From Pontibacter flavimaris (GTDB lineage: Bacteria; Bacteroidota; Bacteroidia; Cytophagales; Hymenobacteraceae), in assembly GCF_001907195.1 (NCBI RefSeq), contig NZ_LVWA01000005.1:62001-126000 (forward strand): a stretch of 64,000 bases of DNA, given 5' to 3'. Positions 1-64,000 of this stretch are shown here, piece by piece; position 1 is the first letter of the stretch; the number at the start of each line of letters is the position of its first letter. The notes under the pieces are model-generated. The model did no database searches, had not been told where the DNA came from, and saw nothing but the letters and a program-made list of their open reading frames with translations. The translations under genes were made by a program, and so were the position numbers.

Positions 1-779
1 AGGACGCTGTAGGTCAGTTGCCACGGCGAGACAGTGCCCTCTCCTAATAATGAAAGGCGGAAAGCCTCGAATAGGGGCGACAGAGGATTTAGCTGCACCA
101 GCCATCGCACCTTCTCCGGAACGGCAGACATGGGGTAAATGACAGGCGTCACATACATCAGCAGCCGAACGCCCAGGCTGATCACATAGCCCATATCACG
201 GTACTTGGCTGTGAGGACCGAGAAGAACAGCCCCATTCCCAGCGCTAGCAGCGCCGTGGCCAGCACCACCACAGGGAACCACATCACCGTTATACTTAGC
301 GTCGGGCGTAAATCCTGGAAGAGCCAATAATAGGCTACCAGGAGCAGCATCAGCAGGAATTGAATCAGAAAATTGTACAGCTGCGTGTGGATAACAGACA
401 GCGGGATGATGATCCTGGGAAAGTATACTTTGCTAAACAAGTGCACATTATCCCGGAACGTAGTGGCGGTGCCTGTAAAGCTGTCGTTGAAAAAACTCCA
501 AAGTATGATGCCGGCAAAATAAAACAGCACGGGAGGCAGCGTTCCGGTGGGGATACCCACCAGTTTGCCGAACACCAGCACATAGGTGACAAGGGTGAGC
601 AGCGGGGGAAAGAGTATCCAGAAGGGCCCCAGCACGGTTTGCTGGTAGCGCAGCAGGAAGTTTCGTTTCACGAGCCCTTCTAACAAATGACGGAAAGCCC
701 ACAGCTCCCGCAGGCTGGCCCCCCAGTAACTTGTTTGGCTGGTAATCTCCCAATCCCATTTAACTTTTGGTACAGACAT
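1..779 (-). CDS. ABC-2 type polysaccharide/polyol-phosphate export permease (partial)
   Basis: Inner-membrane permease of an ABC exporter of the Wzm/TagG/KpsM type, which moves lipid-linked polysaccharide across the inner membrane with an ATPase partner. Read from the ATG at 779 the frame stays open to the window edge, so the C-terminus is missing (about 259 residues seen). The N-terminus has the amphipathic stretch WAFRHLLEGLVKRNFLLRYQQ followed by TVLGPFWILFPPL, which is the family signature, then five or six hydrophobic segments and the AKYRDMGYVI and YVTPVIYP motifs common in this family. The ATPase partner should lie beyond the left edge. Family assignment is firm; the substrate is not known. 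Confidence 0.85.
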   Translation of the reverse strand, partial: MSVPKVKWDWEITSQTSYWGASLRELWAFRHLLEGLVKRNFLLRYQQTVLGPFWILFPPLLTLVTYVLVFGKLVGIPTGTLPPVLFYFAGIILWSFFNDSFTGTATTFRDNVHLFSKVYFPRIIIPLSVIHTQLYNFLIQFLLMLLLVAYYWLFQDLRPTLSITVMWFPVVVLATALLALGMGLFFSVLTAKYRDMGYVISLGVRLLMYVTPVIYPMSAVPEKVRWLVQLNPLSPLFEAFRLSLLGEGTVSPWQLTYSV

Positions 780-951
780 GAAACTCCTCAAAAAGCTGGG
801 TTATGTTATGCCACACTGCCGATTGACCGGGGGCTGCATGCTCGGAAGGGGTGACATCGGTGGCCCCTTAACCGTAACTTATACGAGGGATTGTGAGATG
901 CGTATAATTTATTGTTAAAAAAGTTTTATAAACGGGGCCCATCGGAACAAA

Positions 952-980
952 AGAGGCAGATAGGGTTGCTATCTGCCTCT
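952..980 (-). terminator. Rho-independent terminator of the beta-helix gene
   Basis: A perfect 12-bp stem (AGAGGCAGATAG / CTATCTGCCTCT) with a 5-base loop. It is followed on the minus strand by TTTGTTCCG. It lies 42 bases past the stop of the secreted beta-helix gene. Confidence 0.8.
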
Positions 981-1021
981 GAAGAAGTATAACCGCTTTG
1001 GCTTAACTTTTTATACTTCGC

Positions 1022-4000
1022 CTACTTTTTAACAAGTTTAAAATGATAGGTCTTGCCCTTGAAATAAGCGGTAAGGTAATAAAATCCTGCCTCCTGTACC
1101 TGCGGCAGGCTAATAGGGAGCCGGGTAAGCCCTGGCTGCAGCAGTGCAGTTGTATGCAAGATCTGGCGCCCCTTTGCATCTGTTAGCGTAAGTACCAGTG
1201 TCTCGCTGCCCGGGGATTCGATCTCGAGCATGATCCTGTCGAAGAAAGGATTGGGGTATACCGAAAAGTTGAGATCAGCCCGTGGGAACGCTACCGCCTT
1301 CACAGCAGAGTAGGAGGCAGTACCATCCAGGTCAACCTGCCGCAGCCGATAGTACCGGGTGCCTGCCTTGCCTGCTTCCGTGTCGCGGAAAGTATAGGAT
1401 AGTTTTGTTTGGGAGTTAGGGGACTTGCTTTGCACAAAGCCTAGCTGCCTGAATGTTTTTCCATCCTCCGAAACTTCCGCCCCGAAACCGGAATTATCTT
1501 TCTCAGAGGCTGTTTCCCATGCCAGCAGCACATCGGCACCCTGGCGGCTAGCCATAAACTTAGCCAAGGTGACAGGAAGGGGAGTCGGCACAGAGCTAGT
1601 GCTTGCCACTGTAAACGGGGAGAAGGACGATACGCCGCTCAGGGTGATGTTATACATATCTGGGATGCTGCCCTGTGTTACAGAGCCCATGCTGCTTTCC
1701 ATAACCTGCCAGGTTTCGCCCTCGTAGTGGCTTACAAAACTTTCGCCCCTGTTAAAGTATTCCGGCTCATCATACTTGCTCCACTGCAGCGCCAAGGTTA
1801 CATCAGACCCCCCTGTTACGGCCTCGTCAATATGCCATGTTTTGTTTATAGAGGTAGCCTGCTCCCCTGAATCGGTAAATACCTGGTTCCTTTCTTCCAC
1901 CCCTATGCTGAAGTTGTCTGGCGTGCCATTATTGATGAGTTTAACCGGCGCATAGCTTTTTGATGTTCCAATTGGAAAGACCCTCTCCTTTCCAGATCCC
2001 ATTGATTGGTAGGTTAACCTGCCTTCGCCGTCTGTCACAATGTAGTTGCTCGCGCTGTAGTTTTTAATAGTGGCCTGCTCCGCAAGGGCAAGGTTTTTAC
2101 CTCCCAGGTATACCTTCCCCTGTCCTAAATCCAGGAGGCTGGTAATAACAACGTCATCCTGCAGCTTTCTGGAGCCTGGGCCTGTTAAAACTAAATGACC
2201 GTAGGAGCCTCCGGGTACGACCTGCTGTGTATCGCTGGTAAGGATAATTCTGGAGGTGGGATGGGTTTGCAGCCCTGAACCAGACAGGTTGCCAAAAATC
2301 TCCAGAAAAGCATCTTGTTCCAGCACCAGGGCGGCTGCTGCATCAAGGTTAAGCACCTTGGCGTGCCTGCCCTGCATGATAACGGGATAAAAAAGTATAC
2401 TTTCATTTGGAGCAGGGATACTGACATCAATCAAAGAAGTCGGCACGCAGGTACTCCAGTTTTGCTGGTCGAACCAGTCGGAAGTGGCGCCGCCTCCGGT
2501 CCACGCCGTCTCCTGCGTATCGATTACCAGAACCGTATGATGGGCTATTTGCGTCGTTCCTTGCTCATCGGTGTAGGTATAGGCCAGGGCTTGGTTGCCT
2601 GCCCCGGCTGCTTGCGGGGTAAACATGCCTTCTGCCACGCCCGGACCGCTATAGATGCCTGTCGCGGCAAGCCCAAAGGTAAGTGGCTGCGGGCCGCCAT
2701 ACAGGCAGGCGCTGCTGCTGTTGGTTAGCTGATGCGCTCCGATGCACAGGTCGTTCCGCTGCGCAATGCTGTTGCCCCAGAAGTCCCTCTTGCCGGTGGC
2801 GATGCTGAAATCAGCTGCCAGGTTCAGTGCTTTGCCAATCAGGGGAGAGCTACGAAGCAGTTTGTAGCCCTCCAGCGTATAGAGCCGCTTGGGGTCAGCG
2901 ATGGTTATGCTTTTACCCGGCTCCTTCAGCACAGGGTTAAGCGCATAGCCGAGTGCTACTCCATTCCGCAACTCCTGCTTGGTATTGGTGCGCCAGTTGG
3001 TAAGCGAGTTGTACACCTTACCTGCCCAGTTAAAAGAAGGCGTGGCACCAGACGACCAGTAATTATTGCCTTCGAACCGCACATTGGCTGTCACCTTTGC
3101 ATCTACCTGCACCAGCCCCACTCCACCTGTGGTCACAAAGAGGTTGTTGCGGAAAGTCGCAGCCGTTGCACCACCCGTCTGCACCCACACGGCCTTCGGT
3201 GTTCCGTTAGCGGATGGCGTCAGGTAAATGGTGTTGTTGTAGATCTGCGCGTTCTGGATGCCGCCGTTTGAGCCGGAGGACCAAAGGTGAATGGCACCAT
3301 AGCCGTTCTTCCTGCCATCATTTTCGCTGATGTTGTAGCGGATGGTCAGGTCCTTCATCTCCTTGGCCTCATAGAATTGAGCTAAAAGATACCCGGCCCC
3401 TTCGTTGTCGTGGGAGTAGTTATACTGCAGGATGCAGTTCGTGCTGCCGCCGTCGATGTCAAACCCGCCGCCATCCTTGGTGGTGCCCGTTTTATTGTGG
3501 TGCGACTCGTTGTGCTGGATGATGACGTTGTTGCTGGTATAGCACCAGATTCCTACAGGACCGCCACTGGTCCAAGCATTCAGCCAGCCGTTATTATAGG
3601 CCTCGCAATATTCAATTACTCCCCCGTCAACACCGCCTATTACTATGCCGTTGCCGCTGTGAGAGTGTGTTTTGGTAGGAATACCGGCGTTATTATAGGC
3701 TTTGGAGTGGGCAATGTAGACATTCTGGTGCGGCAGTAGGTTATCCTGCGCCCATATAGCTATGCCCGCATCACCGTTATCATGGGAGGAGGTATTGGTA
3801 ATGGAGATATCGCGGAAGCCCTGGTCAGTATCCCAACTGCCGATGCTGATGCCCGCCTCGCGATAGCCGTATACTTCTACATTATGGATGGCAATATAAG
3901 GGAGCTTCGAGCCGGGCAAATCCATGTAAATCTCCATACCGGCAGTGGTGCTGATCGTTCTGCCGGCCCCCTCAAATACCAGGTCCTCGATCTTAAAGCC

Positions 4001-4336
4001 GGAGGTATTGTATAGCCAGAAGCCTTTCTGGGTGCCACTGCTGATAACGGCTCTGCCGGTCCCGAACGAGCCAAGCACGATCGGGTTCTGCGGAGTCCCT
4101 TTCACTTCTTCTCCAAAGCCCAGGCTCCCGGGGAAGATCTCTTCTCCTTCAAACAGGATGGTGTCTCCGGGTGCAAACTGCGTGGCGTTTACTTTGTCTA
4201 TACTTGCCCATGCGCTTGTTTTCGAAACGCCGGTATAACTGTCGTTGCCGGCGCGGCTGACATAGTAGGTTTCTGCCTGCACACACAGGTTCCCGAGCAC
4301 CATCACCAAACCGATGGTTAAGGATAATAGCCTCAT
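1022..4336 (-). CDS. Secreted parallel beta-helix protein with T9SS C-terminal sorting domain
   Basis: A 1104-residue exported protein. Residues 1-21 form a signal peptide (MRLLSLTIGLVMVLGNLCVQA). The segment TYYVSRAGNDSYTG opening the mature protein, and the repeated short N- and G-rich strands up to about residue 560 (IAHSKAYNN, IQHNESHHN, LQYNYSHDN, IYNNTIY), are typical of right-handed beta-helix polysaccharide lyase-like proteins. A middle region (about 570-1010) looks like beta-sandwich modules. The last 80 residues, with SVYPNPF and GFYYLTAYFKGKTYHFKLVKK-like ends, match a type A T9SS sorting domain. It is therefore expected to be exported by Sec, then T9SS, and released or anchored at the surface. 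A pectate/alginate-lyase-like or other glycan-binding role is possible; the catalytic residues cannot be assigned by eye. Confidence 0.85.
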   Translation of the reverse strand: MRLLSLTIGLVMVLGNLCVQAETYYVSRAGNDSYTGVSKTSAWASIDKVNATQFAPGDTILFEGEEIFPGSLGFGEEVKGTPQNPIVLGSFGTGRAVISSGTQKGFWLYNTSGFKIEDLVFEGAGRTISTTAGMEIYMDLPGSKLPYIAIHNVEVYGYREAGISIGSWDTDQGFRDISITNTSSHDNGDAGIAIWAQDNLLPHQNVYIAHSKAYNNAGIPTKTHSHSGNGIVIGGVDGGVIEYCEAYNNGWLNAWTSGGPVGIWCYTSNNVIIQHNESHHNKTGTTKDGGGFDIDGGSTNCILQYNYSHDNEGAGYLLAQFYEAKEMKDLTIRYNISENDGRKNGYGAIHLWSSGSNGGIQNAQIYNNTIYLTPSANGTPKAVWVQTGGATAATFRNNLFVTTGGVGLVQVDAKVTANVRFEGNNYWSSGATPSFNWAGKVYNSLTNWRTNTKQELRNGVALGYALNPVLKEPGKSITIADPKRLYTLEGYKLLRSSPLIGKALNLAADFSIATGKRDFWGNSIAQRNDLCIGAHQLTNSSSACLYGGPQPLTFGLAATGIYSGPGVAEGMFTPQAAGAGNQALAYTYTDEQGTTQIAHHTVLVIDTQETAWTGGGATSDWFDQQNWSTCVPTSLIDVSIPAPNESILFYPVIMQGRHAKVLNLDAAAALVLEQDAFLEIFGNLSGSGLQTHPTSRIILTSDTQQVVPGGSYGHLVLTGPGSRKLQDDVVITSLLDLGQGKVYLGGKNLALAEQATIKNYSASNYIVTDGEGRLTYQSMGSGKERVFPIGTSKSYAPVKLINNGTPDNFSIGVEERNQVFTDSGEQATSINKTWHIDEAVTGGSDVTLALQWSKYDEPEYFNRGESFVSHYEGETWQVMESSMGSVTQGSIPDMYNITLSGVSSFSPFTVASTSSVPTPLPVTLAKFMASRQGADVLLAWETASEKDNSGFGAEVSEDGKTFRQLGFVQSKSPNSQTKLSYTFRDTEAGKAGTRYYRLRQVDLDGTASYSAVKAVAFPRADLNFSVYPNPFFDRIMLEIESPGSETLVLTLTDAKGRQILHTTALLQPGLTRLPISLPQVQEAGFYYLTAYFKGKTYHFKLVKK

Positions 4337-4945
4337 AAACTTCAGTACTTATACGTTGGAGGCTAAATTAACTGCAGGGGTGCTGACGGAAAAGGGCAAG
4401 GCCAGCGGGTGCTGATGCATACCTGCCCGCGTAGTGTACCTGGGGATGAAGTGCAGAAAGGGCTTTATATAAAGATGCAGGAGGGTAAGTGTATGCCATA
4501 TAAACGCAATAAGGTAAGGAATTGTAAATTGTATTATTTTATACTTTGTCTCAGCTTTATTTTCCTGCAATAGTGATTATTATTTTGATGCGAACAAAAC
4601 CGCTCACGGAAAAGTTTAGTAAAAATGCTTTAAGGGATTGTATCGTTTAATTCTGTTCCGGAAATGTTATAACAAAGTTATGTGCGTTAATTAATTAGTA
4701 GTGAATGTGGTTGATCGGATGTTAGCGGGGAGGAAGGAACGGCCTAACTATATGGGATTGCCCGAATTTTCATACTTCGCCTAGAAGTATGAAGCGGCCT
4801 GTATACTTAATGTTGCAGCCGGCGTCATGGTTGTAAAATTAAACTTTTAGAGGGAGGTGCTCCTGCGAACAATGCCAAAAGTATACTTTAATCCTAGATT
4901 CTGTGGAATTCATGGTATGGTTGCCCAAGAGATTATAAAAAGAAA
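4337..4945. other. Non-coding spacer with AAGTATA-type hairpin
   Basis: No convincing gene. The stretch is AT-rich and should carry the promoter of the beta-helix gene. It contains several AAGTATA/TATACTT words and a perfect 10-bp hairpin at 4769-4793 (TTCATACTTC, loop GCCTA, GAAGTATGAA) without a T-tract. The short minus-strand frame at 4349-4570 has no family resemblance and is not called. Confidence 0.6.
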
Positions 4946-4973
4946 GCCCCTGCAGCGATTGAACTGCAGGGGC
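4946..4973 (-). terminator. Rho-independent terminator of the outer-membrane barrel gene
   Basis: A 10-bp perfect stem (GCCCCTGCAG / CTGCAGGGGC) with an 8-base loop, followed on the minus strand by TTTCTTTTTAT. It lies 23 bases past the stop of the gene. Confidence 0.85.
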
Positions 4974-4996
4974 CGCCACTTTAGAGGCATGACTTC

Positions 4997-6250
4997 CTAG
5001 AGCCGATAGCCCAGCATAACGTATACATGCCGGGCCTTGGCGGAAACAGAGTGGATAGCAGAGGAGTTTTCATTCGCCTCATATCTCACGCTCAATAACA
5101 AGGCCTTTCCTCCGAACGGGATGGACATGCCTGCGCCTGCCGTTATGCCCAGCGTGCGCTTCCTGAAGCCGCCCTCCCCGAAAGCTTCCTGCTCCCGCAC
5201 TCTGGGTTCGTCCGGGTCATAGTAGTCTGTTCGGGTGGCCTGCTGTGTTACCTGCACCGCCATGTTGTTCACAAGCCCCGCGCTAACGTATGGCCTGATT
5301 CTGCCATTCGGGTACGTATACATAAGCTGGACCGGCACTTTGAGGTAATCCACATCAAAAACAACGTCGTAGGCATAGTTGAAGCCAAGGTTGTTTCTGT
5401 GGTTGAAGGAGGCTGTCTGCCTGAAGGGCATGTATAAGAGATCGGCCTGAAGGGATAGTTTCTCGTTTAGCCGTGGAATGGTGACATTGGCAGTGATACC
5501 GCCCCCCAGGCCTACGGACTCATTTTTATACTTTCCCTGGCTAACCGGGTGCTCATCGCCTTTCAGCGTAAAGGTGCTGGAGGTGTAGGTCAGGGCAGGG
5601 GCAAAGGTAAGTTTAGATTTCTTTCTGCCGGCTTTTTGGGTAGGAGCTCCGTCGCCCACGCATTGGTTGTATGCCTCTGTTATGTCTGCCAGGGCACTAG
5701 CCGTGAACATCAGGTCTTTGTACCTGCTGGCTCTTATCTTCTCGCAGTCGGCAAAGGCTACGGCAATCGTGTTGGTATAGTCCCGTTTCTCCGCTTTATA
5801 CAGCTTCCCCGAGTTCAGGTCCTTCAGCTTGATCTCCTCGTAAATCAGTTCTATCAGTGGCTGGGCCTCCTTTTTAAGGAAGTAGCGGTCCTTGTGAAAC
5901 GAATCGCGGTAATAGTACACACTTGCACGGCCCTTCACCAGCACATCCAGGAACACCCGCTCCTTGGTCGTATCCGCTCCTGCTGTCACAGGAATGTCAA
6001 ATGCCTCAAAGTGTTTCTGTCCGCTATCAAATCCGTAGGCCGTAATGTCGTGGGGTGTGAAGGTTTGCTCAGCGGCGCTTTCCTGTTGCTTGAAAGTGGT
6101 GACCACGGAACTGCGCATGGCGCCCCGGTAGTCCACCAGGCCGCGAACTGTATCCCCGTGCTGCACAATATAGCCGGGCTGAAAGCTTTTCTGGGCGAAG
6201 GACAGGCTGCAAATAAACAGGAAGGTGAGGGTGATGTAAAGTTGTTTCAT
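4997..6250 (-). CDS. Outer-membrane beta-barrel protein (porin-like/PorT-type family)
   Basis: A predicted 417-residue protein with a Sec signal peptide (MKQLYITLTFLFICSLSFAQ). The start is set here rather than 15 codons upstream because this Met opens the signal peptide. The first half (about residues 20-200) is a soluble domain beginning GYIVQHGDTVRGLVDYRG, seen in Cytophagales outer-membrane proteins. From about residue 215 on, alternating hydrophobic strands (LSLQADLLYMPF, LKVPVQLMYTYP, RPYVSAGLVNNMA, LLLSVRYEAN, ending HVYVMLGYRL) indicate an 8- to 10-stranded barrel ending in an aromatic/Leu strand. It is a single gene with its own terminator. The function is unknown. Confidence 0.75.
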   Translation of the reverse strand: MKQLYITLTFLFICSLSFAQKSFQPGYIVQHGDTVRGLVDYRGAMRSSVVTTFKQQESAAEQTFTPHDITAYGFDSGQKHFEAFDIPVTAGADTTKERVFLDVLVKGRASVYYYRDSFHKDRYFLKKEAQPLIELIYEEIKLKDLNSGKLYKAEKRDYTNTIAVAFADCEKIRASRYKDLMFTASALADITEAYNQCVGDGAPTQKAGRKKSKLTFAPALTYTSSTFTLKGDEHPVSQGKYKNESVGLGGGITANVTIPRLNEKLSLQADLLYMPFRQTASFNHRNNLGFNYAYDVVFDVDYLKVPVQLMYTYPNGRIRPYVSAGLVNNMAVQVTQQATRTDYYDPDEPRVREQEAFGEGGFRKRTLGITAGAGMSIPFGGKALLLSVRYEANENSSAIHSVSAKARHVYVMLGYRL

Positions 6251-6356
6251 GGAAGTATGGAAGTCGAAAGGTCTTGAAACATGCAAGTACGCCATTCCAG
6301 TAAAACTTTCATATTTCTCCTATATATAAAAGCAGCATGTTGAGGCCCGGAAACAA

Positions 6357-6389
6357 AAACACCCCAGCCGGATTCCGGCTGGGGTGTTT
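6357..6389 (-). terminator. Rho-independent terminator of dnaK
   Basis: A very strong 15-bp perfect stem (AAACACCCCAGCCGG / CCGGCTGGGGTGTTT) with a 3-base loop, flanked by A-rich DNA on the left that gives a T-run on the minus strand. It lies 25 bases after the dnaK stop. Confidence 0.9.
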
Positions 6390-6413
6390 CACTATAGTTT
6401 GAGTTTTAGATGC

Positions 6414-8345
<1,932 letters not shown>

Positions 8346-8402
8346 TCTATAGTTTTATTTATAGTTGCTGATTCAATTTTCCTTTAAGGTTACTTCTGTT
8401 TT

Positions 8403-8419
8403 AACAAGGTATGTGCCAA
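8403..8419 (-). promoter_or_regulatory. Possible sigma-54-like -24/-12 element upstream of dnaK
   Basis: Read on the minus strand the sequence is TTGGCAC-ATACC-TTGTT, which resembles the sigma-54 consensus YTGGCAC-N5-TTGCW with one mismatch (TTGT for TTGC). Transcription would start near 8392, giving a leader of about 47 bases. No clear TAnnTTTG box or CIRCE inverted repeat was found between here and the start codon. Confidence 0.35.
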
Positions 8420-8694
8420 CAGGGAGATAACCCATTTTTTATGTCAATCTGTCAGCAAACGGCCACCCGTCCATACTTGTTGGCTGGACTGCCGGAGCAA
8501 ACCTGCCGCCACTGCGACATAATTACTGAAGTATACTTTACTTACAGGATGTGCTTCGAGTTGTAAAAGCAAGTATAAACCGAAAGGCGCTGCCAGGGCC
8601 GGCCTAACAGAAGGCACTCGTGCGCGGGAGCTGAAGCCATACTGTTTTCAAAATGGGTTCCTTAAAAGGCAGTTTGGGGGAGGGGAGGATGTGG
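8420..8694. other. Spacer between dnaK and the small envelope gene cluster
   Basis: No gene seen. It contains GTATACTT and AAGTATA words near 8530-8576. No clear terminator hairpin for the downstream minus-strand gene was identified. Confidence 0.5.
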
Positions 8695-9309
8695 CTATTG
8701 CCGGAACCCGGCGCTCAACTGCTGCACTTCCGCCTTATACGCTGGCAGGATGTCGCTGAGGCCTTCTTTGGCAGCGGCATAGGTTATCTCTACCTGCTTT
8801 TCGCCCATTCGGTAAGCCAGCAGGCCCTGCTGCTCCTCTGTCAGGTAGTATAGCTTGTCCGGCTCTGAGACTGTGGAAATGAGGTACGTGCGGAAACTGA
8901 AGCTGTTCTGGATGCGGTGCTGGGTGGGGGGACGGTTCTCGAGGTAGCGCTGCGTAACCACGGTGTCCAGGGCAATATTGCTTTGTATCTGCACGATGCT
9001 GCGGATCTCGCCTGCGTCAAACATCCAGCGGTGCACCTGGTGGGGGCCCTGCTGTTGCTGCACATAGGTGGCCTGGCTTAGATCGAGGTTAGCCACCAGC
9101 GCGAACAGCTGCAGGTCCTGTGCCACGGTCTCCACGGTGGGGCTCAGGTTGCTGTTGTCGCTGATGAAGTAGCTGCTAGCCTGCTGCAGGCGGTTGAGGT
9201 CTTTCTGCAGGTCCTGCTGCAGGCGCAGTTGCGAAGTGTCTGAAACTATAGAAGTGTCTGAAAGTATAAAGGAGAGGGGCAAGAGTATACTTAGGAGTAA
9301 TGTCGTCAT
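8695..9309 (-). CDS. Exported protein of unknown function
   Basis: A 204-residue product starting with a hydrophobic signal-like segment (MTTLLLSILLPLSFILSDTS), so it is probably periplasmic or membrane-anchored. The mature part is rich in Gln and Leu and probably helical at first (LRLQQDLQKDLNRLQQASSY), then mixed. I recognise no family. It is the last of three minus-strand genes for small exported or anchored proteins separated by 15-56 bases. GTATACTT and AAGTATA words sit in the signal-peptide coding segment. Confidence 0.55.
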   Translation of the reverse strand: MTTLLLSILLPLSFILSDTSIVSDTSQLRLQQDLQKDLNRLQQASSYFISDNSNLSPTVETVAQDLQLFALVANLDLSQATYVQQQQGPHQVHRWMFDAGEIRSIVQIQSNIALDTVVTQRYLENRPPTQHRIQNSFSFRTYLISTVSEPDKLYYLTEEQQGLLAYRMGEKQVEITYAAAKEGLSDILPAYKAEVQQLSAGFRQ

Positions 9310-9365
9310 CGTGTAGCTGGGTTTTATACGTTATACTTCTTCCACACAAATCTTGTGCTAGGAAA

Positions 9366-9611: not shown

Positions 9612-9626
9612 ACTTTAGTTCATACT

Positions 9627-10142: not shown

Positions 10143-10252
10143 AGTTTATGACTCGTGTAAGGTCAGGACAATGCGTAATAATATACCAATTTGCTAATTT
10201 ATACTTTGGCCACCGCAAAAAGTGCCGTTTTTTCTGAAGAATTTAAAAAGAA

Positions 10253-10278: not shown

Positions 10279-10305
10279 CTATACTTTTACAAAAGTGCGG
10301 TAGGG

Positions 10306-52438: not shown

Positions 52439-52439
52439 T

Positions 52440-56277: not shown

Positions 56278-56286
56278 TAATCCGTA

Positions 56287-56343
56287 AAAGTATAAAACAG
56301 AAAAGGCCCGCTTTACCAGCGGGCCTTTTCTGTTTTATACTTT
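56287..56343 (+). terminator. 26-bp perfect terminator hairpin closing the polysaccharide locus
   Basis: The left arm (56287-56312) and right arm (56318-56343) are perfectly complementary over 26 bases with a 5-base loop TTACC. The core is AAAAGGCCCGCT / AGCGGGCCTTTT, and the outer ends are AAAGTATAAA and TTTATACTTT. It can act for both convergent genes. Confidence 0.9.
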
Positions 56344-56344
56344 A

Positions 56345-56370
56345 ATGGCGCAAGCGTCCGCTTGCGCCAT
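56345..56370. repeat. REP-like hairpin CAAGCG/CGCTTG
   Basis: A 12-bp perfect stem (ATGGCGCAAGCG / CGCTTGCGCCAT) with a 2-base loop, starting 2 bases after the terminator. Same family as 23513, 23605 and 61847, here with TC in place of GA as loop and GCGC in place of GCAC at the base. Confidence 0.75.
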
Positions 56371-56382
56371 GGTGAAAGTAAC

Positions 56383-57282
56383 CTATACTTTGCCGCCCAA
56401 CAGCAGCACCTTCCAGGCCTGTTCTACCTGGTTATCCTCCAGCAGTTGCTTGCCCAAGTGCTCAAGTTCCTGCCGCAGCCTGATGGGGTCGTTTTTATAC
56501 TTGGAGAAAGTATAGCTTACCAGCGGGTCAGCTTCATAGGCCTCTACCTCTGCTTCTGAAGGTATGGCTTCAGAATTTCCAAGGCGGGCCAGGTTATTCC
56601 CGGTAAGTATACCGCTGTTGCGTATGAAGCCTGGAAGCTGATCCAGGCCAATGCCTTTGTTGCGGATAGGCTTGGGTAATTCAAAAATACAGTCGCCGTT
56701 GGCGCGCAGGTAGTAATCGCCGCCCATGCGGGCCACGGCATCCAGTTTATACGGGTCTACCTTGCCGTTCTCGTCCAGTATACTTTCGTTTACATGGATC
56801 AACAGCACCTCACAGATAACCAGGTTACCGGCTCCTCCCTCAGGCCCGAGGCTGATTATATCGTTTACCTTACACTCAAAAGCTACCGGGGCCTCCTTTA
56901 CACGCGGGGGCTGCACAAGTACTGACGCCTCAGGGGTTAAGCCCGATTTAATGAATTCGTTTATGCCCCGGTCATACTCAGTGCTGGCCAGCGACATCTG
57001 CTCCACGATAGCATAGTTAGCAATGTTGATCACCACCTCGCGGTTTTCCAGCACATTCTCCAATGTATGCTTGCTGGTATTGTCGCGCACGCGGCGGGCA
57101 GGGGAGAAGACAAGTATGGGAGGCTTAGCGCTGAACACGTTGAAGAAGCTGAAGGGGCTTAGGTTTACGTTCCCCTCCCCGTCGGTTGTGCTGGCAAAAG
57201 CAATGGGGCGCGGGGCGATGGCTCCGAGCAGCAGCGCGTGCACCTCTGCCGTTTTAACGTCCTGCGGATCTATGGTTTTCAT
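56383..57282 (-). CDS. Flavin reductase family protein
   Basis: A 299-residue FMN-binding split-barrel protein. Marks: LLGAIAPRPIAFASTTDGEGNVNLSPFSFFNVFSAKPP-type N-terminal block (about 17-54) and VINIANYAIVEQM near 87. In the middle, FECKVNDIISLGPEGGAGNLVICEVLLIHV (about 135-163) follows the family. It probably reduces or binds flavin; the partner is unknown. It converges on the polysaccharide locus terminator and may be co-transcribed with fumarylacetoacetase upstream, although a repeat array separates them. Confidence 0.85.
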   Translation of the reverse strand: MKTIDPQDVKTAEVHALLLGAIAPRPIAFASTTDGEGNVNLSPFSFFNVFSAKPPILVFSPARRVRDNTSKHTLENVLENREVVINIANYAIVEQMSLASTEYDRGINEFIKSGLTPEASVLVQPPRVKEAPVAFECKVNDIISLGPEGGAGNLVICEVLLIHVNESILDENGKVDPYKLDAVARMGGDYYLRANGDCIFELPKPIRNKGIGLDQLPGFIRNSGILTGNNLARLGNSEAIPSEAEVEAYEADPLVSYTFSKYKNDPIRLRQELEHLGKQLLEDNQVEQAWKVLLLGGKV

Positions 57283-57289
57283 GGGAAGT

Positions 57290-57346
57290 TTGGGAGTTAG
57301 AGGATTTAGGAGTTAGAAAGTTAGAAGGTTAAAAAGTTAGAAAGTT
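57290..57346. repeat. AGTTAGA-type heptamer tract
   Basis: Degenerate repeats of GTTAGAAAGTTAGAAGG type, directly upstream of the flavin reductase start. Same family as the tracts at 15361 and 27347. Confidence 0.7.
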
Positions 57347-57370
57347 ACAGTACACATTAATTAAAAAATT

Positions 57371-57505
57371 AATAACGATCAACTAATAACGATCAACTAA
57401 TAACGATCAACTAATAACGATCAACTAATAACGATCAACTAATAACGATCAACTAATAACGATCAACTAATAACGATCAACTAATAACGATCAACTAATA
57501 ACCGA
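57371..57505. repeat. Nine-copy 14-bp tandem array
   Basis: AATAACGATCAACT is repeated nine times without change (57371-57496), followed by a broken tenth copy (AATAACCGAT). It ends within a few bases of the fumarylacetoacetase stop. The unit length is not a multiple of three and no frame uses it. Likely a length-variable minisatellite. Confidence 0.9.
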
Positions 57506-57508
57506 TAC

Positions 57509-58780
57509 CTAAACCGCCGGCAGCACCTTTGCTTTCACCTCCCCGAAGCCGATGCGGATACCGTTGCGCTCGCTGTGGCCGCGCATGATCACGGTGTCGC
57601 CGTCGTTGATGAACTTGCGCTCTGAACCGTCGGAGAGTTGAATGGGATTGGTGCCGCGCCAGGTCAGCTCCAACATAGAGCCATACGAGTCTTTATCGGA
57701 GCCGCTGATCGTGCCCGAGGCATACAGATCACCTACCTGAATGTTGCAGCCGTTGCTGCTCTGGTGGGCGAGTTGCTGGTTCATGTTCCAGTACATATAC
57801 TTGTAGTTGGAGCGGCAGATGCTGTTCTCCTCATCGCCTTCAGGCTGCAGCAGCACCTCCAGCCTGATATCATAGTTGTGGTTGCCGGTGAACTCCAGGT
57901 AGGGCAGCGGTTTAGGGTCCTGCATCGGCCCCTTTACCTTGAATGGCTCCAGTGCGTCGAGCGTTACCACCCACGGTGAAATGGAAGAGGCAAAGCTTTT
58001 CGCCAGGAACGGCCCCAGCGGCACATACTCCCACGTCTGCATATCGCGGGCCGACCAGTCGTTAAAGAGCACCAGTCCGAAGATGTAGTCATCCGCCTCA
58101 TTAGGCGTTATACTTTGTCCCAATTCAGTTTCCCGACCTGTGATAAACGCCACCTCCAGCTCGAAATCCAGCAGTTTGGTAGGGCCAAAGGTAGGGGCCT
58201 CGGTATCCGGCGCCTTCGTCTGGCCTTTCGGGCGACGGATATCTGTGCCGGAAACGATGATGGAAGAGGCGCGCCCGTGATAGCCGATCGGGATGTGCTT
58301 CCAGTTGGGGAGCAGTGCGTTTTTAGGGTCCCGGAACATGGTGCCCACGTTGGTGGCGTGCTCTATGCTGGAGTAGAAGTCGGTATAATTGCCCACTTTT
58401 ACCGGCAGCAGCATTTCGGCCTCGCTCTGCTTCACCAGCACCGCACGGATCAGGTTGCTGTTGCCGCTGATCTCGTCGTTGTCGTTGCGGAGCAGTTCGG
58501 ACACGCGGTTGCGCACGGCCCGCCAGATGGGTTTGCCCAAAGCGATAAAGTCGTTGAGGTAAGGGCGGTGGAAAACGGTCGGGTCCAGGTCGATAAGCTC
58601 AAAGAAGTCGCGGCGACCCAGCTCGCAAAGGTCCAGGATGTACTCGCCGATGGCCACCCCTACACGTGGGTCGCGCTCGGACGTGCGGAAAATACCGAAG
58701 GGCAGGTTCTGAATGGGGAAATCGCTGGAAGCATCAATCTCGATCCAGGAATGCAGCGATGGGTCGTTTGCTCTTATCAT
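57509..58780 (-). CDS. fahA: Fumarylacetoacetase
   Basis: Last enzyme of tyrosine and homogentisate breakdown: splits fumarylacetoacetate to fumarate and acetoacetate. 423 residues. N-terminal SH3-like domain with FGIFRTSERDPRVGVAIGEYILDL near 28, and catalytic domain with YTDFYSSIEHATNVG near 130, PIGYHGRASSIIVSG near 160, LDFELEVAFITGRETELG (metal ligands) near 198 and VLFNDWSARDMQTWEYVPLGPFLAKSF-type block near 235. A TATATTTG box lies 31 bases upstream. Other tyrosine-degradation genes are not in the window. Confidence 0.96.
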   Translation of the reverse strand: MIRANDPSLHSWIEIDASSDFPIQNLPFGIFRTSERDPRVGVAIGEYILDLCELGRRDFFELIDLDPTVFHRPYLNDFIALGKPIWRAVRNRVSELLRNDNDEISGNSNLIRAVLVKQSEAEMLLPVKVGNYTDFYSSIEHATNVGTMFRDPKNALLPNWKHIPIGYHGRASSIIVSGTDIRRPKGQTKAPDTEAPTFGPTKLLDFELEVAFITGRETELGQSITPNEADDYIFGLVLFNDWSARDMQTWEYVPLGPFLAKSFASSISPWVVTLDALEPFKVKGPMQDPKPLPYLEFTGNHNYDIRLEVLLQPEGDEENSICRSNYKYMYWNMNQQLAHQSSNGCNIQVGDLYASGTISGSDKDSYGSMLELTWRGTNPIQLSDGSERKFINDGDTVIMRGHSERNGIRIGFGEVKAKVLPAV

Positions 58781-58810
58781 GGTATGGACTAGTTCTGGTT
58801 AGCTATAGTA

Positions 58811-58818
58811 CAAATATA
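58811..58818 (-). promoter_or_regulatory. Bacteroidetes -7 box (TATATTTG) of fahA
   Basis: Exact TAnnTTTG match on the minus strand, leader about 25 bases. The -33 element is not clear. Confidence 0.5.
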
Positions 58819-59299
58819 GCTTTTCGCCCGCTGATTTAGAATCATAAAGCGGAATTCGCAGATTTTATACTTTCCTGACTGACTTCGGCGGGCGGAGCCC
58901 TCAAGTTCTCTATTTAGCTTCATAATGGCGCGAGCGTTCTCGCCTTATCTTGTCCTCTTGCTGGCGCGGGTTTGTAACCCGACTGGGCCAGCCTGTCCCG
59001 GGGAGGACAAATCTATAGGCAATCACGAGCGTGGACTCCCGCGCCACATACTGCTATTTTTGCAGAATGAAACGGCTCTAGCTTTGAGAAGAATTGATTT
59101 ATTCTTTCATGCCGATGATACATGAACACCAAAGTATGACACAAGTATAAAGTATGAGGCCGCTTCACTGCTGGTGTTCTCACCAACAGTTTATACTTCA
59201 GCTAGTTCGCTTGCTGGTGAAAACACGCAGCAAGGGCATCAGGGTCAGCATAAGGAACAAACAACGTTACATTCCATCACTAAGAACCAAAACAAAAAA
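58819..59299. other. Spacer with REP-like hairpins
   Basis: No credible gene. It holds a GGCGCGAGCGTTCTCGCC hairpin (58927-58944) and a CGGGTT-TGT-AACCCG hairpin (58967-58981), each flanked as in the other covarying hairpins (GGCG before, CTGGGCC or CC after). AAGTATA words follow near 59133-59155. Confidence 0.6.
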
Positions 59300-59327
59300 A
59301 GGTGTGGCCACAGCAGCAGCCACACCT
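59300..59327 (-). terminator. Rho-independent terminator of the nifU-mrp operon
   Basis: A 9-bp perfect stem (AGGTGTGGC / GCCACACCT) around a CAGCAG-rich loop, with seven A on the left giving a T-run on the minus strand. It lies 30 bases past the NifU-type stop. Confidence 0.85.
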
Positions 59328-59356
59328 CTCGGTATCTCTTGTATAAAGCTTATACT

Positions 59357-59626
59357 TTAAAACTCGGTAGGAGTCATGTTGATGGCTTCCACGGCCTTGA
59401 TCTCGGGTATGGCGCGCAGCACCGACTGCTCCACGCCCGCCTTCAGCGTCATGGTAGACATGGGGCAGGTGCCGCAGGCACCTAGCAGTTCGAGTTTCAG
59501 CACCATCTCGTCTGTTACCTCCAGCACTTTTACGTTCCCGCCATCGGCCTCCAGGTAAGGTCTTATCTGGTCGAGGGCCGACTCGATGCGGAGCATGAAA
59601 TCCTGATCTACGTTTATGGCTGCCAT
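59357..59626 (-). CDS. NifU-like Fe-S scaffold domain protein
   Basis: An 89-residue protein consisting only of the NifU C-terminal (Nfu) domain, which carries or transfers an Fe-S cluster. It has IRPYLEADGGNVKVLEV near 20 and the cluster-binding CxxC in LGACGTCPMSTMTLKAGVEQ near 48. It lies 6 bases after mrp, so the two are co-transcribed, which fits joint work in cluster delivery. Confidence 0.93.
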   Translation of the reverse strand: MAAINVDQDFMLRIESALDQIRPYLEADGGNVKVLEVTDEMVLKLELLGACGTCPMSTMTLKAGVEQSVLRAIPEIKAVEAINMTPTEF

Positions 59627-59632
59627 GTATCT

Positions 59633-60736
59633 TTAGGTTTTAATTTCTACTGGTTTTGTTTTGGCCATGGTGGCGTTGCGCAGCGATACCTGCTGGGCTA
59701 CAGACTGGGCCAACTCTTTAAAAACACCGCTGGCCGGAGAATCGTTCTGCAACACCACCGGAGTACCGGCGTCACCGCTCTCGCGGATGCTCTGCACGAT
59801 CGGCACCTGGCCCAGCAGGGCTACGTTGAACTTATCGGCAAGCGACTGTCCGCCGCCCTGTCCGAAAATGTAGTATTTGTTCTCCGGAAGCTCGGCAGGT
59901 GTAAAGTACGCCATATTCTCCACAATGCCCAGCACCGGCACGTTTATCTGCGGCTGTCGGAACATCTGCAGACCGCGCACGGCATCGGCCAGGGCTACTT
60001 TCTGCGGCGTGGTCACGATCACCGCGCCTGTTACCGGCAGGGCCTGCACCATGGTCAGGTGTATGTCGGAGGTTCCCGGCGGAAGGTCCAGCAGCAGGTA
60101 GTCCAGCTCGCCCCAATCCACGTCGGAGATGAACTGGCGCAGCGCAGAGCTGGCCATCGGGCCTCTCCACACCACCGCGTCGTCCGCTGGCGTCAGGAAG
60201 CCTATCGACATCATCTTCACGCCATACTTCTCCACCGGATGGATGTAGTTCTTACCGTGGTCTCCCTGCACCATGTACGGGCGCTCCTGCTCCACACCAA
60301 ACATCGTCGGAATGGAGGGACCGGAGATGTCGGCATCGATCAAGCCTACGCGGGCGCCGCTCTCGGCCAGGGCAATAGCCAGGTTAGAGGTTACGGTAGA
60401 CTTGCCCACTCCGCCTTTACCGGAGGCAATGGCGATGATGTTCTTCACGCCACGCAGCACCTCGGAGGTGTCGCCGCGGCCGGAGGTAACGCGCGAGGTC
60501 ATGTTCACGGTAACGTCGGCCTCCTTGTCCACCAAAGTATGGATGGCATTTACGCAGGCGTTGCGGATCAAATCTTTGAGCGGGCAGGCCGGTGTGGTCA
60601 GTATAACCGTGAAGCTCACGTTCTTGCCATTCACCTGCACGTCCTCTATCATGTTGAGCGTCACCAGGTCCTTGCCCAGGTCCGGCTCCTCCACATAGCT
60701 GAGGGCTTTTAGTATATCTTCTTTTGTGATAGCCAT
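59633..60736 (-). CDS. mrp: Mrp/ApbC family Fe-S cluster carrier ATPase
   Basis: A 367-residue protein. N-terminal MIP18/DUF59 domain (about 1-90, SYVEEPDLGKDLVTLNMI) and deviant-Walker ATPase domain with AIASGKGGVGKSTVTSNLAIAL near 97, DADISGPSIPTMFG near 128 and YLLLDLPPGTSD near 205. The start is placed at MAITKEDILKAL, excluding 11 codons. The region where ApbC/Nbp35 proteins have a cluster-binding CPxC reads NMAYFTPAELPENKYYIFG here, without cysteines. It probably moves Fe-S clusters with the NifU-like protein downstream. Confidence 0.92.
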   Translation of the reverse strand: MAITKEDILKALSYVEEPDLGKDLVTLNMIEDVQVNGKNVSFTVILTTPACPLKDLIRNACVNAIHTLVDKEADVTVNMTSRVTSGRGDTSEVLRGVKNIIAIASGKGGVGKSTVTSNLAIALAESGARVGLIDADISGPSIPTMFGVEQERPYMVQGDHGKNYIHPVEKYGVKMMSIGFLTPADDAVVWRGPMASSALRQFISDVDWGELDYLLLDLPPGTSDIHLTMVQALPVTGAVIVTTPQKVALADAVRGLQMFRQPQINVPVLGIVENMAYFTPAELPENKYYIFGQGGGQSLADKFNVALLGQVPIVQSIRESGDAGTPVVLQNDSPASGVFKELAQSVAQQVSLRNATMAKTKPVEIKT

Positions 60737-60758
60737 AGTATTATTAGCGATTGCCTGA

Positions 60759-60766
60759 CAAAGATA
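60759..60766 (-). promoter_or_regulatory. Bacteroidetes -7 box (TATCTTTG) of mrp
   Basis: Exact TAnnTTTG match on the minus strand in the divergent spacer between mrp and the macro-domain gene. The leader is about 15-20 bases. TTTGTTTG directly precedes it. Confidence 0.5.
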
Positions 60767-60880
60767 CAAACAAATTATTCCTCCTGAAAAGACAAAACGT
60801 ATAAGTGCAACAAGTGTAGCAACCGAATAGTTTTAGCGTAAAAGTATATTGAGATAATTGATCAGAACAAAGTATAAAGG

Positions 60881-61408
60881 ATGGGAAAAACGATGCTTGA
60901 GGTACAGCAGGGCGATATTACAAAGGTAGAAGTTGATGCCGTGGTGAACGCCGCCAACAGCAGCCTTTTGGGTGGTGGAGGGGTGGACGGCACCATCCAC
61001 CGCGCCGGCGGCCCCGCAATTCTGGAAGAGTGCCGGCAGATACGGGCAAAACAGGGGGGCTGCCCTACCGGAGAGGCGGTAATCACGACAGCCGGCAAGC
61101 TGCCTGCCCGGTTTGTAATCCACACCGTAGGGCCGGTTTGGAACGGCGGGAGCAAAGGCGAGCCCGACCTGCTGGCCAACTGTTACCGCAACAGCCTCAG
61201 GCTAGCCGGGGAAAACGGCGTGGAAAGTATCGCTTTCCCCAACATCAGCACCGGCGTGTATGGTTATCCTAAAGATAAAGCCGCAAAAGTGGCAGTAGAG
61301 ACGGTGAAATCATACTTGCAGGAGCATAACCTAAGTATAAAGCGGGTGGTTTTTGTGTGTTTTGATGAGGAGAATTACAGGCTGTATCAGGAGTTAATTG
61401 CGAAGTAG
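60881..61408 (+). CDS. Macro-domain protein (O-acetyl-ADP-ribose deacetylase type)
   Basis: A 175-residue macro domain of the YmdB/MacroD class that hydrolyses O-acetyl-ADP-ribose or mono-ADP-ribose. The family residues are in [24 protein letters not shown] near 24-46 (catalytic Asn and Asp) and [17 protein letters not shown] near 115-130 (ribose loop). Full length, single gene, divergent from mrp. Confidence 0.94.
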
Positions 61409-61437
61409 AGGGACATAGTTTGATAAACACCGGGTCC

Positions 61438-61508
61438 AACCACCCCTGCCCCTCAGAGCTACGCTCGCTACCATCGAACTCGCGTTCTCGGTAGTCTAAG
61501 GAGGGGAG
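61438..61508. repeat. CACCCCTGCCCCTC ... GAGGGG repeat, long form, second copy
   Basis: Nearly identical to the element at 22976, with the same inner segment (GAACTCGCGTTCTCGGTAG, now a better palindrome). It is followed by CACCTCTCCCC and CCCTCTCC boxes. Confidence 0.7.
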
Positions 61509-61574
61509 TTTCACCTCTCCCCAACCCTCTCCTAAAAACAGGAGAGGGGGCTCCGTTTACGTTGCATAGCAAGT

Positions 61575-61816
61575 AGCTATCGAACTGATCCCAGTCCTTA
61601 GGTTGAGCGCCTTGTGAGATTCCGGTGCCGCCTTGGCGGCATTGCGACGTAGGAGCAAAGGAAGGGAACACAGCGCGATGCCTAAGGACGAGCCCTCTCG
61701 GGCTAGAGAGCACCAAAGTATGAAATGAAACAAGCTGGTTGTAAAGCCGTGGATCAACGGCAGCTAGAAAGTATAGCTTGTGTCAAGTTGAGGGAAGCAG
61801 CGGCTAGGAAAGTATA
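61575..61816. repeat. Dispersed structured repeat, copy C
   Basis: Third copy of the element at 17831 and 23278. The conserved 16-mer is at 61605-61620 and the 18-mer at 61664-61681. The hairpin after the 16-mer reads GCCGCCTTGGCGGC here, against GCCGCGCAAGCGGC in copy A. GCCCTCTCGGGC and GAGAGCACCAAAG are shared with copy B. The tail has GGCAGCTAGAAAGTATAGCT and ends in an AAGTATA word. Confidence 0.75.
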
Positions 61817-61844
61817 AATTGGTAAGTATCAAAGTATAAAAAGG

Positions 61845-61958
61845 CACAAGCGGACGCTTGCGCCAGAGACGTATAGCAGCAAGTATAAAACAGCAAGTAT
61901 AAAAGTATAGCCAACGTATACATGAGGATTTTCGAGCCAACCCAGGTTGCAAACCCAG
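61845..61958. repeat. REP-like hairpins after copy C
   Basis: CAAGCG-GA-CGCTTG (61847-61860) in the usual GGCA...CGCC frame, then AAGTATA words, then a GAGCCAACCCAGGTTGCAAA-type hairpin (GGTT-GCA-AACC, 61945-61955). The order (long repeat, then these hairpins) is the same as at copies A and B. Confidence 0.65.
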
Positions 61959-62029
61959 CATTATAGCAAAACTGGAGAGACTCTTCTGTAATCCGGAAAA
62001 ATCAGCCACTCAAAATTAGAGAGAACTCT

Positions 62030-62037
62030 TATCTTTG
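62030..62037 (+). promoter_or_regulatory. Bacteroidetes -7 box (TATCTTTG) of dnaG
   Basis: Exact TAnnTTTG match 23 bases before the dnaG start. The -33 TTTG is not evident. Confidence 0.5.
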
Positions 62038-62060
62038 TCATCCGCTCATACTTTTTGCCC

Positions 62061-63977
62061 ATGTCCCTCATCCCAAAAGAAATAGTTGACCAGGTTATTG
62101 CCCAAGCCGATATTACGGAGGTGGTAGGCGATTTCGTGTCGCTGAAGAAGAAGGGGCAGAACATGTGGGCCTGCTGTCCGTTCCACCACGAGAAATCCCC
62201 GTCCTTTTCTGTATCTCCTGCTAAGGGCATTTACAAGTGCTTTGGCTGCGGCAAGGCGGGCAACGCGGTGCAGTTCATCATGGATGTAGAGGGCACTGGC
62301 TTTCCCGAGGCCATTAAATACCTGGCTAAGAAGTATGGCATCGAGATACCCGAGGAGCAGCACGACCCGGAGTACGCCCGGGAGCAGAGCGAGCGCGATA
62401 GTTTGTTCATCGTTTCCGATTTTGCGGCTAAGCACTTCCAGCAGCGCCTGATCGCCCATGAGCAGGGAAGCATCGGGCAATCCTACCTAAAGCAGCGGGG
62501 CCTCAGTGCCGGCACCATTAAGAGGTTTGAGCTGGGCTACAGCCTGGATGAGTGGACCGATTTGACCGACACGGCACTGAAGGCCGGTTATAAGCAGCAG
62601 TACCTGGAGGCGTCGGGCCTGACGATCGTGAAGGAGGACGGCAAGAAGTATGACCGCTTCCGGGGACGCGTTATGTTCCCGATCCACAACGTGTCGGGGC
62701 GCGTGGTGGGCTTTGGGGCCAGAACGCTCAAATCCAACGACAAGAAAAGCCCGAAGTACCTTAACTCCCCGGAGTCCGACATTTACCACAAGAGCCATGT
62801 GCTGTATGGTTTGTTTCAGGCAAAGCAAGCCATGCGCATGCAGGACATGTGCTATATGGTGGAGGGTTACCTGGATGTGCTCTCGCTGCACCAGGGCGGG
62901 ATCGAGAACGTGGTGGCCTCGTCCGGAACCTCGCTTACGGAGGGGCAGATCAAGCTAATTTCCCGCTATACCCAGAACATCACCGTCCTCTACGACGGCG
63001 ACGCGGCGGGTATAAAAGCCTCTCTGCGCGGGATAGACCTGATCCTGGAACTGGGCCTGAACGTAAGTGTGGTGACTTTTCCGGCAGGCGAGGACCCGGA
63101 CTCCTACATCCAGAAGGTGGGTGATACGGCTTTCAAGGCCTACCTGCAGGAGCACGCACAGGATTTTATCTCCTTCAAGACAAGCCTTTATGCCAAGGAG
63201 GCGGCCGGTAACCCGGTTAAGAAAGCCGAGGCGATAAAAGAGGTGGTGGCCTCCATCTCTAAAATTCCGGATGCCATCAAGCGTACAGTGTTCTTCCGCA
63301 GCTGCAGCCTCATTTTCGATATTGATGAGCAGGTACTGATATCGGAATACAACAAAATGCACCTGCAGGGGCGGCAGCAACAGCAGCGGTCTAGCGGCCC
63401 GGAGCCTGATTTTGCGCCGCCGATGCCGGAAGAGGAGCCGGAAAAGCCTGCTTCTGATGCCGATGTCCTCAAAAGGTATGAGCGGGAGATCGTGCGCATG
63501 CTGCTGAACTACCCGAACCGCATGCTGGACGATGGCCTGACGACCAGCCAGTACATGCTGGAGCAACTGGAGGACATCGAATTCCGCACGCCGCTGTATG
63601 TACATTTGCTAAATTTAATTAAAGAGAAGCTTAAAGAAGGGGCTTTGCCTACGTCTGAGGACTTTGTGAATTATCCTGACCAAAGAATTAGAGAGGAGGC
63701 ATCAGGTTTGCTTCTTGAAAAGTACGAAATAAGCAAAGGGTGGGAAACACATCATATTTTTGTCCCACATGAGACCGATCAATTACCTTATGGATCTGAG
63801 AGAGCTGTATTAAGATTAAAATGGCGAAATGTTGAGTTAATGATCAAAGAAGAAGTGGAGAAGCTGCGACTTGTTACTGATCCACAAGAGCAAATTCATC
63901 AGATGACTTTTATACGCAATCTCAGCACGCTCTACAAACAGCTAGGAGATATGCTCGGGATAGTGGTGAATAGGTGA
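62061..63977 (+). CDS. dnaG: DNA primase
   Basis: Makes the RNA primers for replication, working with the DnaB helicase. 638 residues. N-terminal zinc-binding domain with CPFHHEKSPSFSVSPAKGIYKCFGCGKAG-type CHC2 ligands (about 38-66), catalytic TOPRIM core with YMVEGYLDVLSLHQGGIENVVASSGTSL-type block (about 265) and LYDGDAAGIKA near 310. A Gln-rich linker near 440 leads to the C-terminal helicase-binding domain. ATG is preferred to a TTG two codons upstream. From about base 63600 the DNA becomes clearly more AT-rich while the frame stays open. Confidence 0.96.
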   Translation: MSLIPKEIVDQVIAQADITEVVGDFVSLKKKGQNMWACCPFHHEKSPSFSVSPAKGIYKCFGCGKAGNAVQFIMDVEGTGFPEAIKYLAKKYGIEIPEEQHDPEYAREQSERDSLFIVSDFAAKHFQQRLIAHEQGSIGQSYLKQRGLSAGTIKRFELGYSLDEWTDLTDTALKAGYKQQYLEASGLTIVKEDGKKYDRFRGRVMFPIHNVSGRVVGFGARTLKSNDKKSPKYLNSPESDIYHKSHVLYGLFQAKQAMRMQDMCYMVEGYLDVLSLHQGGIENVVASSGTSLTEGQIKLISRYTQNITVLYDGDAAGIKASLRGIDLILELGLNVSVVTFPAGEDPDSYIQKVGDTAFKAYLQEHAQDFISFKTSLYAKEAAGNPVKKAEAIKEVVASISKIPDAIKRTVFFRSCSLIFDIDEQVLISEYNKMHLQGRQQQQRSSGPEPDFAPPMPEEEPEKPASDADVLKRYEREIVRMLLNYPNRMLDDGLTTSQYMLEQLEDIEFRTPLYVHLLNLIKEKLKEGALPTSEDFVNYPDQRIREEASGLLLEKYEISKGWETHHIFVPHETDQLPYGSERAVLRLKWRNVELMIKEEVEKLRLVTDPQEQIHQMTFIRNLSTLYKQLGDMLGIVVNR

Positions 63978-64000
63978 TATTGATCGACTCTTCTTAACTT

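Follow-up and report, generated by a model that had tools for sequence, protein, structure and literature searches.

AAGTATA, a dense and clade-specific chromosomal word of Pontibacter and a candidate DNA uptake sequence

Background

Why should a single heptamer recur so densely, in genes and spacers alike, along a stretch of bacterial chromosome? The stretch in question comprises 64,000 nucleotides of Pontibacter flavimaris (assembly GCF_001907195.1, contig NZ_LVWA01000005.1, positions 62,001 to 126,000), referred to here as the window, and the heptamer is AAGTATA with its complement TATACTT. The word belongs to a system that is real, genome-wide and clade-specific. By analogy with known systems, AAGTAT[A/G] may be a self-recognition word of the DNA uptake sequence (DUS) type, maintained by natural transformation, a reading to which a probability of roughly 0.55 is given. 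A preliminary description of the window had likened the word to uptake sequences or to sites of a chromosome-organising or restriction-like system. The uptake-like part of that proposal is the best supported, because the words, with random flanks, are scattered over both strands and every frame, because they fall to background level in a polysaccharide island and are mostly low on second contigs, because the clade dialects share a fixed core and a gradient links two of them, and because competence genes are present genus-wide. A polar chromosome-organising role is disfavoured, as strand skew is absent from six of six stretches of the single-contig genome G083.

Abundance and form of the word

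The window contains 64 copies of AAGTATA and 58 of TATACTT, a mean of 61 per strand where a dinucleotide model expects 3.9, and AAGTATA is the highest-ranked 7-mer under that test. Under a maximal-order (pentamer/hexamer) Markov model AAGTATA is not among the top 7-mers, since shorter words within it already account for the signal, and AAGTAT heads the 6-mers. In the first 10.3 kb, where about 19 copies had been counted by eye, the enrichment stands and the count was low: a program finds 24, with four palindromic AAGTATACTT sites (421..430, and further starts at 2393, 4879 and 8529) each counted twice. The over-representation is in fact stronger than first claimed, at 122 copies in the window and 10,628 (5461 + 5167) in the P. 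flavimaris genome of 4,623,791 bases in 13 contigs. The reversed word occurs there 276 times (134 + 142), which gives AAGTATA an enrichment of about 38-fold on both strands. The word is thus neither near its Markov expectation across the genome nor confined to a few spacers.

The form of the word was studied in 383 kb of P. flavimaris sequence, made up of 340 kb of other stretches and 43 kb of the window. This sample holds 980 strand-counted copies of AAGTATA against 45 expected from trinucleotides, and AAGTATG is raised as well, at 400 against 50; the remaining 20 single-base variants lie between 0.6 and 2.9 times expectation. The extended motif is (A)AAGTAT[A>G](A)A; beyond one base on the 5' side and two on the 3' side, the flanks of the 980 occurrences carry at most 0.03 bits. 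Among the 8-mer forms AAGTATAA leads by a wide margin, with 276 copies against 69 for AAGTATAC, and the word is not palindromic. The palindrome ACTATAGT does occur in AACTATAG genomes.

Genes were called as greedy longest open reading frames (ORFs) rather than with a trained gene finder; those shorter than 600 nt were not treated as coding and those containing N were dropped. ORFs of at least 600 nt carry 1.58 words per kb. The 443 words observed in them are a 9.7-fold excess over 30 synonymous-codon shuffles, which averaged 45.7 and never exceeded 57, and each of the six frames and orientations holds 60 to 88 copies. The reversed word, with 8 copies, is below its shuffle mean of 16.8. In spacers the density reaches 7.1 words per kb. 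Words reported inside ald, porX and an esterase-like gene of the window were found there. The product of the ORF at 14080-15360 is a distant relative of EreB-type erythromycin esterases; it scores 36.5 bits against a cut-off of 750 and is for that reason not called a resistance gene.

Distribution along the window

Word positions, together with coding and spacer densities, mark positions 1..29007 as word-rich chromosome with AAGTATA and TATACTT all along its genes and spacers, and word positions mark 50001..64000 as word-rich again, in agreement with the preliminary reading of a dense word up to 29 kb and from 50 kb on. Between them, word counts and gene content define an AT-rich, word-poor surface polysaccharide region (29122..50000). 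Its genes encode an NAD-dependent epimerase/dehydratase, an aminotransferase, a nucleotidyl transferase, a flippase-type protein, glycosyltransferases and a sulfotransferase. The island holds 12 words in total. Its genes of at least 600 nt hold 8, against a synonymous-shuffle mean of 5.7, so that the fall to the level of composition noticed at first was upheld. Second contigs of near-complete genomes, presumed to be plasmids, are mostly low as well, with 2 and 3 words per 20 kb in G052 and 11 and 6 in G129; in the accompanying tally of distinct enriched words, a word was shown only if it stood at 12 or more separated places.

Several local groupings of words were located by position. An inverted pair AAGTATA...TATACTT lies at 985..1018, just beyond the end of a gene with a type IX secretion system (T9SS) tail (1022-4336). 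The spacer cluster at 17660..18423 has words mostly on one strand and includes a short inverted array at 17778-17810, and the clusters at 23466..23749 and 61769..61909 consist of same-strand words on the plus strand. Common repeat-like hairpin DNA, for example a recurring CACAAGCGGACGCTTGCGCCAG stretch, is present at 17640-18560, 23440-23840 and 61400-62000, and in these spacers the words stand in same-strand tandems at spacings of about 6-8, 11-12 and 18-22 bp.

Orientation and spacing

In tandem spacers of the P. flavimaris sequence the density shows little trend with the distance from either flanking gene, if noisy (4-13 per kb per 20-bp bin), and no clear preference for gene starts or gene ends, as for promoters or terminators, was seen there. 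Convergent spacers carry 8.7 words per kb and divergent ones 5.1. Of the 50 words in divergent spacers of the genome stretches, 36 point the same way with respect to the gene closest to them. Words in close pairs tend to lie on one strand (116 against 21 at 5-15 bp), as do those 31-60 bp apart (136 against 84), and the spacings favoured by close pairs of AAGTATA are 6-8, 11-12 and 18-22 bp. DUS form inverted pairs as gene-end hairpins. Such pairs are not typical here, and single hairpins exist, as at 985-1018 of the window.

The same-strand close pairs with preferred spacings, and the very high spacer density, are what might be expected of a site bound by an abundant cytoplasmic chromosomal protein, a nucleoid or domain organiser whose specificity has diverged between clades. 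The flat profile of tandem spacers speaks against such a protein, as do the many word-poor relatives that do without the word; a shift of specificity at thousands of sites would also be harder to imagine without a spreading mechanism. This explanation is regarded as unlikely.

An abundant chromosomal oligomer with a lineage-specific sequence could also be a polar site for recombination or segregation, of the Chi or KOPS (FtsK-orienting polar sequence) type. Strand skew was absent in all six stretches of G083. In P. flavimaris it reached p<0.05 in 5 of 17 segments (chi2 47 over the 17 segments) with a sign that flips between neighbours, perhaps due to the clustering of same-strand tandems. Both results disfavour a polar site, which is very improbable.

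Origin of the sites

Twelve window genes were aligned by codon with those of named relatives. Gaps at the sites are found in 3 of 619 comparisons for the A word (AAGTATA) and in none of 412 for the C word (AGGTATA), from which it follows that words arise by substitution rather than insertion. The clusters within repeat-like hairpin DNA had raised the possibility that the words derive from a decayed mobile or repeat element; for the bulk of the sites this is refuted by the ungapped alignments and by the random flanks of the 980 occurrences, and the explanation is scarcely credible.

Relatives without the dialect mostly differ at 1-4 of the 7 bases of aligned sites. Peptide identity is 0.41 at A-word sites against 0.55 in random windows, and 0.49 against 0.53 for the C word; the A word carries some protein cost. 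These figures bear on the possibility that a sequence-specific mutation or conversion bias writes a functionless word. Such a bias would account for words in all frames and in spacers and, given a drifting enzyme, for dialects as well. There is no broad shortage of one-mismatch neighbours (0.6-2.9 times expectation) and relatives are usually 1-4 of 7 bases off, so that one-step conversion is not enough, and the lower peptide identity at A-word sites also argues against it. A bias of this kind is considered improbable.

Dialects within Pontibacter

Three words were counted in 50 Pontibacter genomes, with cut-offs set by us. AAGTATA reaches at least 4,000 copies in 23 genomes, AGGTATA at least 5,000 in 12, and AACTATA at least 3,500 in 8, four of which are also rich in AAGTATA. 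The other 11 genomes are poor in all three words; they include G115, with 3,132 AGGTATA and 3,450 GGGTATA. The dialects share the core A[A/G][G/C]TATA. Among 23 named Pontibacter loci, 7 carry the A word, 1 the B word (AACTATA), 9 the C word and 1 a weak GGGTATA, and 5 are unclear. The 3.9 kb of alignable genes available for P. mangrovi at first suggested a loss of the word, which may be only apparent.

A midpoint-rooted ComEC tree was built for 47 of the 50 genomes (without G091, G093 and G111). Ten of the 12 AGGTATA genomes are present in it; they make up a single clade, whose sister is G103, an AAGTATA genome. Another group consists of G083, G097, G117, G119, G018, G058 and G033, with G043 beside it, next to the midpoint root. 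As the most widespread word, AAGTATA is probably ancestral. The words thus differ between clades and follow the phylogeny with a fixed core, as the comparison of related species suggested in the preliminary description has now found.

Along the series G043, G058, G033, G018 and G083, whose order was set by word content and not by the tree alone, intergenic AAGTATA falls from 6.9 per kb through 5.3, 3.7 and 1.9 to 1.0, and intergenic AACTATA runs from 2.3 through 2.35, 4.3 and 6.1 to 8.9. The old word AAGTATA persists in the genes of G018 at 1.2 per kb. Across the four mixed genomes AAGTATA gives way to AACTATA by degrees, as though one word were being replaced by the other; such mixtures could come from a single, less selective reader, from a pair of readers or from imported genes.

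A dense, island-poor and clade-specific word could also serve a methyltransferase or a defence system as a site for marking self DNA, with modified words shielding the chromosome. Enrichment of restriction sites is unusual, and the A word is not a palindrome. A partial precedent is offered by HIP1 (highly iterated palindrome) of cyanobacteria, which has a methylated core according to the available part of the source (PMC6604393). Marking of this kind is rather unlikely.

Words in other genera

Counts of AAGTATA in 100 genomes sampled from five other genera depart from the control by no more than about 2.5-fold. Other words are enriched outside Pontibacter. Of 66 genomes sampled from one genus (g5, taken as Hymenobacter), 8 hold 3,370-7,401 copies of CTACCCC, and in four loci of that genus this word stands at 5.6 times the synonymous shuffle. 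CCTAGG[G/C] is a near-palindrome, partly double-counted, for which the reversed control is unreliable, and genomes were therefore compared with each other. Strand-counted matches number 13,907 in G059, 9,977 in G137 and 2,593 in G080; in genus g4 they number 5,170-5,978 in three of eight genomes (G004, G015 and G030) and 175-362 in the other five. Apart from these six high genomes, the 144 others of the 150, those five included, have 57-1,088. A single 21-kb locus of H. wooponensis is enriched in TAGGCCA, its genes holding 18 copies against 3.7. No comparable word was seen in Cyclobacteriaceae and other outgroups, each represented by one short locus per genome.

CGAAATC, from one locus of Hymenobacter negativus, was dropped as a DNA word, having no spacer copies. 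It is enriched in genes only, with 14 of 21 copies in one sense frame, and looks like a codon-pair preference.

Tentatively, and at somewhat less than even odds, the Hymenobacteraceae may have a pilus-free form of DNA self-recognition that evolved independently of Neisseria and Haemophilus, with the dialects AAGTATA, AACTATA, AGGTATA, CTACCCC, CCTAGG and others, and with one Pontibacter clade in the midst of rewriting thousands of words.

Competence genes and the uptake model

A match to ComEC is found in all 50 Pontibacter genomes. A ComEA-like helix-hairpin-helix protein of 304-346 amino acids is also matched in all 50 and intact in 49, and DprA is matched in 50 and intact in 48. On the uptake explanation, a putative envelope reader would prefer word-bearing DNA, which would enter by way of the ComEA-like protein and ComEC and be recombined with the help of DprA and RecA. 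Over many rounds of such selective uptake, words would build up across chromosomal DNA; drift of the reader's specificity would slowly rewrite the genome, and loss of competence or of the reader would leave the words to decay.

Broken genes are found in G087 (comEC, comEA-like and dprA), G046 (comEC and dprA) and G119 (a frame break in comEC). G087 is a single-contig genome nested among AAGTATA genomes, and five ORFs neighbouring its broken genes (probed from G055) are intact. It is depleted in words, with 5,476 copies, and in the 120 kb read it has 1.19 words per kb in genes and 1.94 in spacers. Its ratio of intergenic to coding density is 1.63, against 4.43 in P. flavimaris and 2.24 and 4.03 in two word-rich pools. 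In this single case, the low ratio is as predicted by decay after loss of competence. G046 was left out of the argument as a second instance of competence loss, because the assembly also shows breaks and duplications among the genes next to comEC. In its region C76:150001-170000 (L227), the broken genes are comEC and part of its surroundings, and further neighbours occur twice in the contig; the region looks either poorly assembled or decayed and duplicated.

A number of observations weigh against the uptake explanation. One-mismatch forms are not clearly raised in G087, with an excess of 0.51 per perfect word against 0.26-0.40. A similarly low ratio of 1.82 (from only 35 words) is found in G073 and G049, whose competence genes are intact; G073, with 4,114 AAGTATA, is the lowest of the unmixed genomes among the 23 rich in that word, and its second contig is mixed, with 4 and 20 words per 20 kb in two stretches. 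All 11 word-poor genomes retain the three competence genes, so these genes do not predict the word, and ComEC is broken in G046 and G119 despite full complements of words (9,303 AGGTATA and 13,109 AACTATA, respectively). The close pairs are same-strand tandems, unlike the inverted pairs of DUS. No full-length ATPase of the T2SSE/PilB/PilT type (PF00437) was found in the 50 genomes, pilin families not being part of the search. With at most 31 first-look candidates scored per genome, no more than about 60 of the 370 positions of PF00437 are matched in any genome; these short P-loop matches are present in all 50 and pass the cut-off in 3. Finally, no reader protein was identified among the candidates, namely DUF5689 and ten ORFs around comEC.

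DUF5689 (PF18942), to which the screen in Riemerella had pointed, was rejected as reader; it is present in 22 of the 50 genomes, is absent from P. flavimaris and shows no match with word status. The ten ORFs around comEC of P. flavimaris, which include PhoH-like, GNAT, ABC ATPase and DnaJ-like products, contain no obvious outer-membrane receptor, the scan having covered part of the ORFs in that neighbourhood. If the uptake model is right, a separate reader must exist, since none of the three competence genes is missing from the 11 word-poor genomes. Given the lack of a full-length type IV pilus ATPase, the outer-membrane step must then differ from that of Neisseria and Haemophilus. A surface protein with a beta-barrel route, as proposed for Riemerella, is a possible but speculative candidate for this step.

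If true, the uptake explanation would make Bacteroidota an independent case of uptake words, one in which a single genus has several dialects. The transitional genomes, the word-poor relatives and the competence-broken genome would make the spread of words and the co-evolution of reader and word testable, as would be the role of words as species barriers to recombination. Such a case would also give a starting point in the search for the outer-membrane receptor through which Bacteroidota take up DNA.

Comparison with known systems

To our knowledge, uptake words are known only from two proteobacterial families, both with pilus-based uptake. In the open-access literature no report of such a word in Pontibacter, Hymenobacter or Bacteroidota was found, a search whose scope excluded most subscription journals and bioRxiv preprints. 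HIP1 of cyanobacteria, as far as its partial sources describe it, is likewise a very dense chromosomal word; it is a palindrome with a methylated core, whereas AAGTATA is non-palindromic. The uptake signal sequence of Pasteurellaceae, as it is outlined in the sources at hand, resembles the Pontibacter words in being species-specific, present in thousands of copies and a mark of self DNA. It belongs to another phylum and is a different word, and the Pasteurellaceae machinery is pilus-based.

Within Bacteroidota, transformation of Riemerella anatipestifer requires ComEC, DprA, ComF, RecA, a helix-hairpin-helix protein and a DUF1343 protein, and also a surface protein with an outer-membrane barrel, according to the accessible part of the report (PMC8459023). 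Pontibacter shares with it the phylum, ComEC, DprA and the periplasmic helix-hairpin-helix protein. The same part of that report mentions no uptake word, and the distribution of its DUF5689 surface protein among Pontibacter genomes does not follow that of the word.

The DUS of Neisseriaceae, as described in the available portion of the source, exist in eight dialects with an invariant CTG core; one genome has two dialects and some have none (PMC3630211). The Pontibacter word is shorter, stands in same-strand tandems and has a putative uptake route and receptor, no type IV pilus ATPase having been found in the genomes searched. The core, CTG in Neisseriaceae, is TATA preceded by G or C in Pontibacter. 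In both, as far as that source describes them, thousands of copies are scattered on both strands through genes and spacers, several dialects follow the phylogeny, and genomes with two dialects occur alongside members without the word (PMC3630211).
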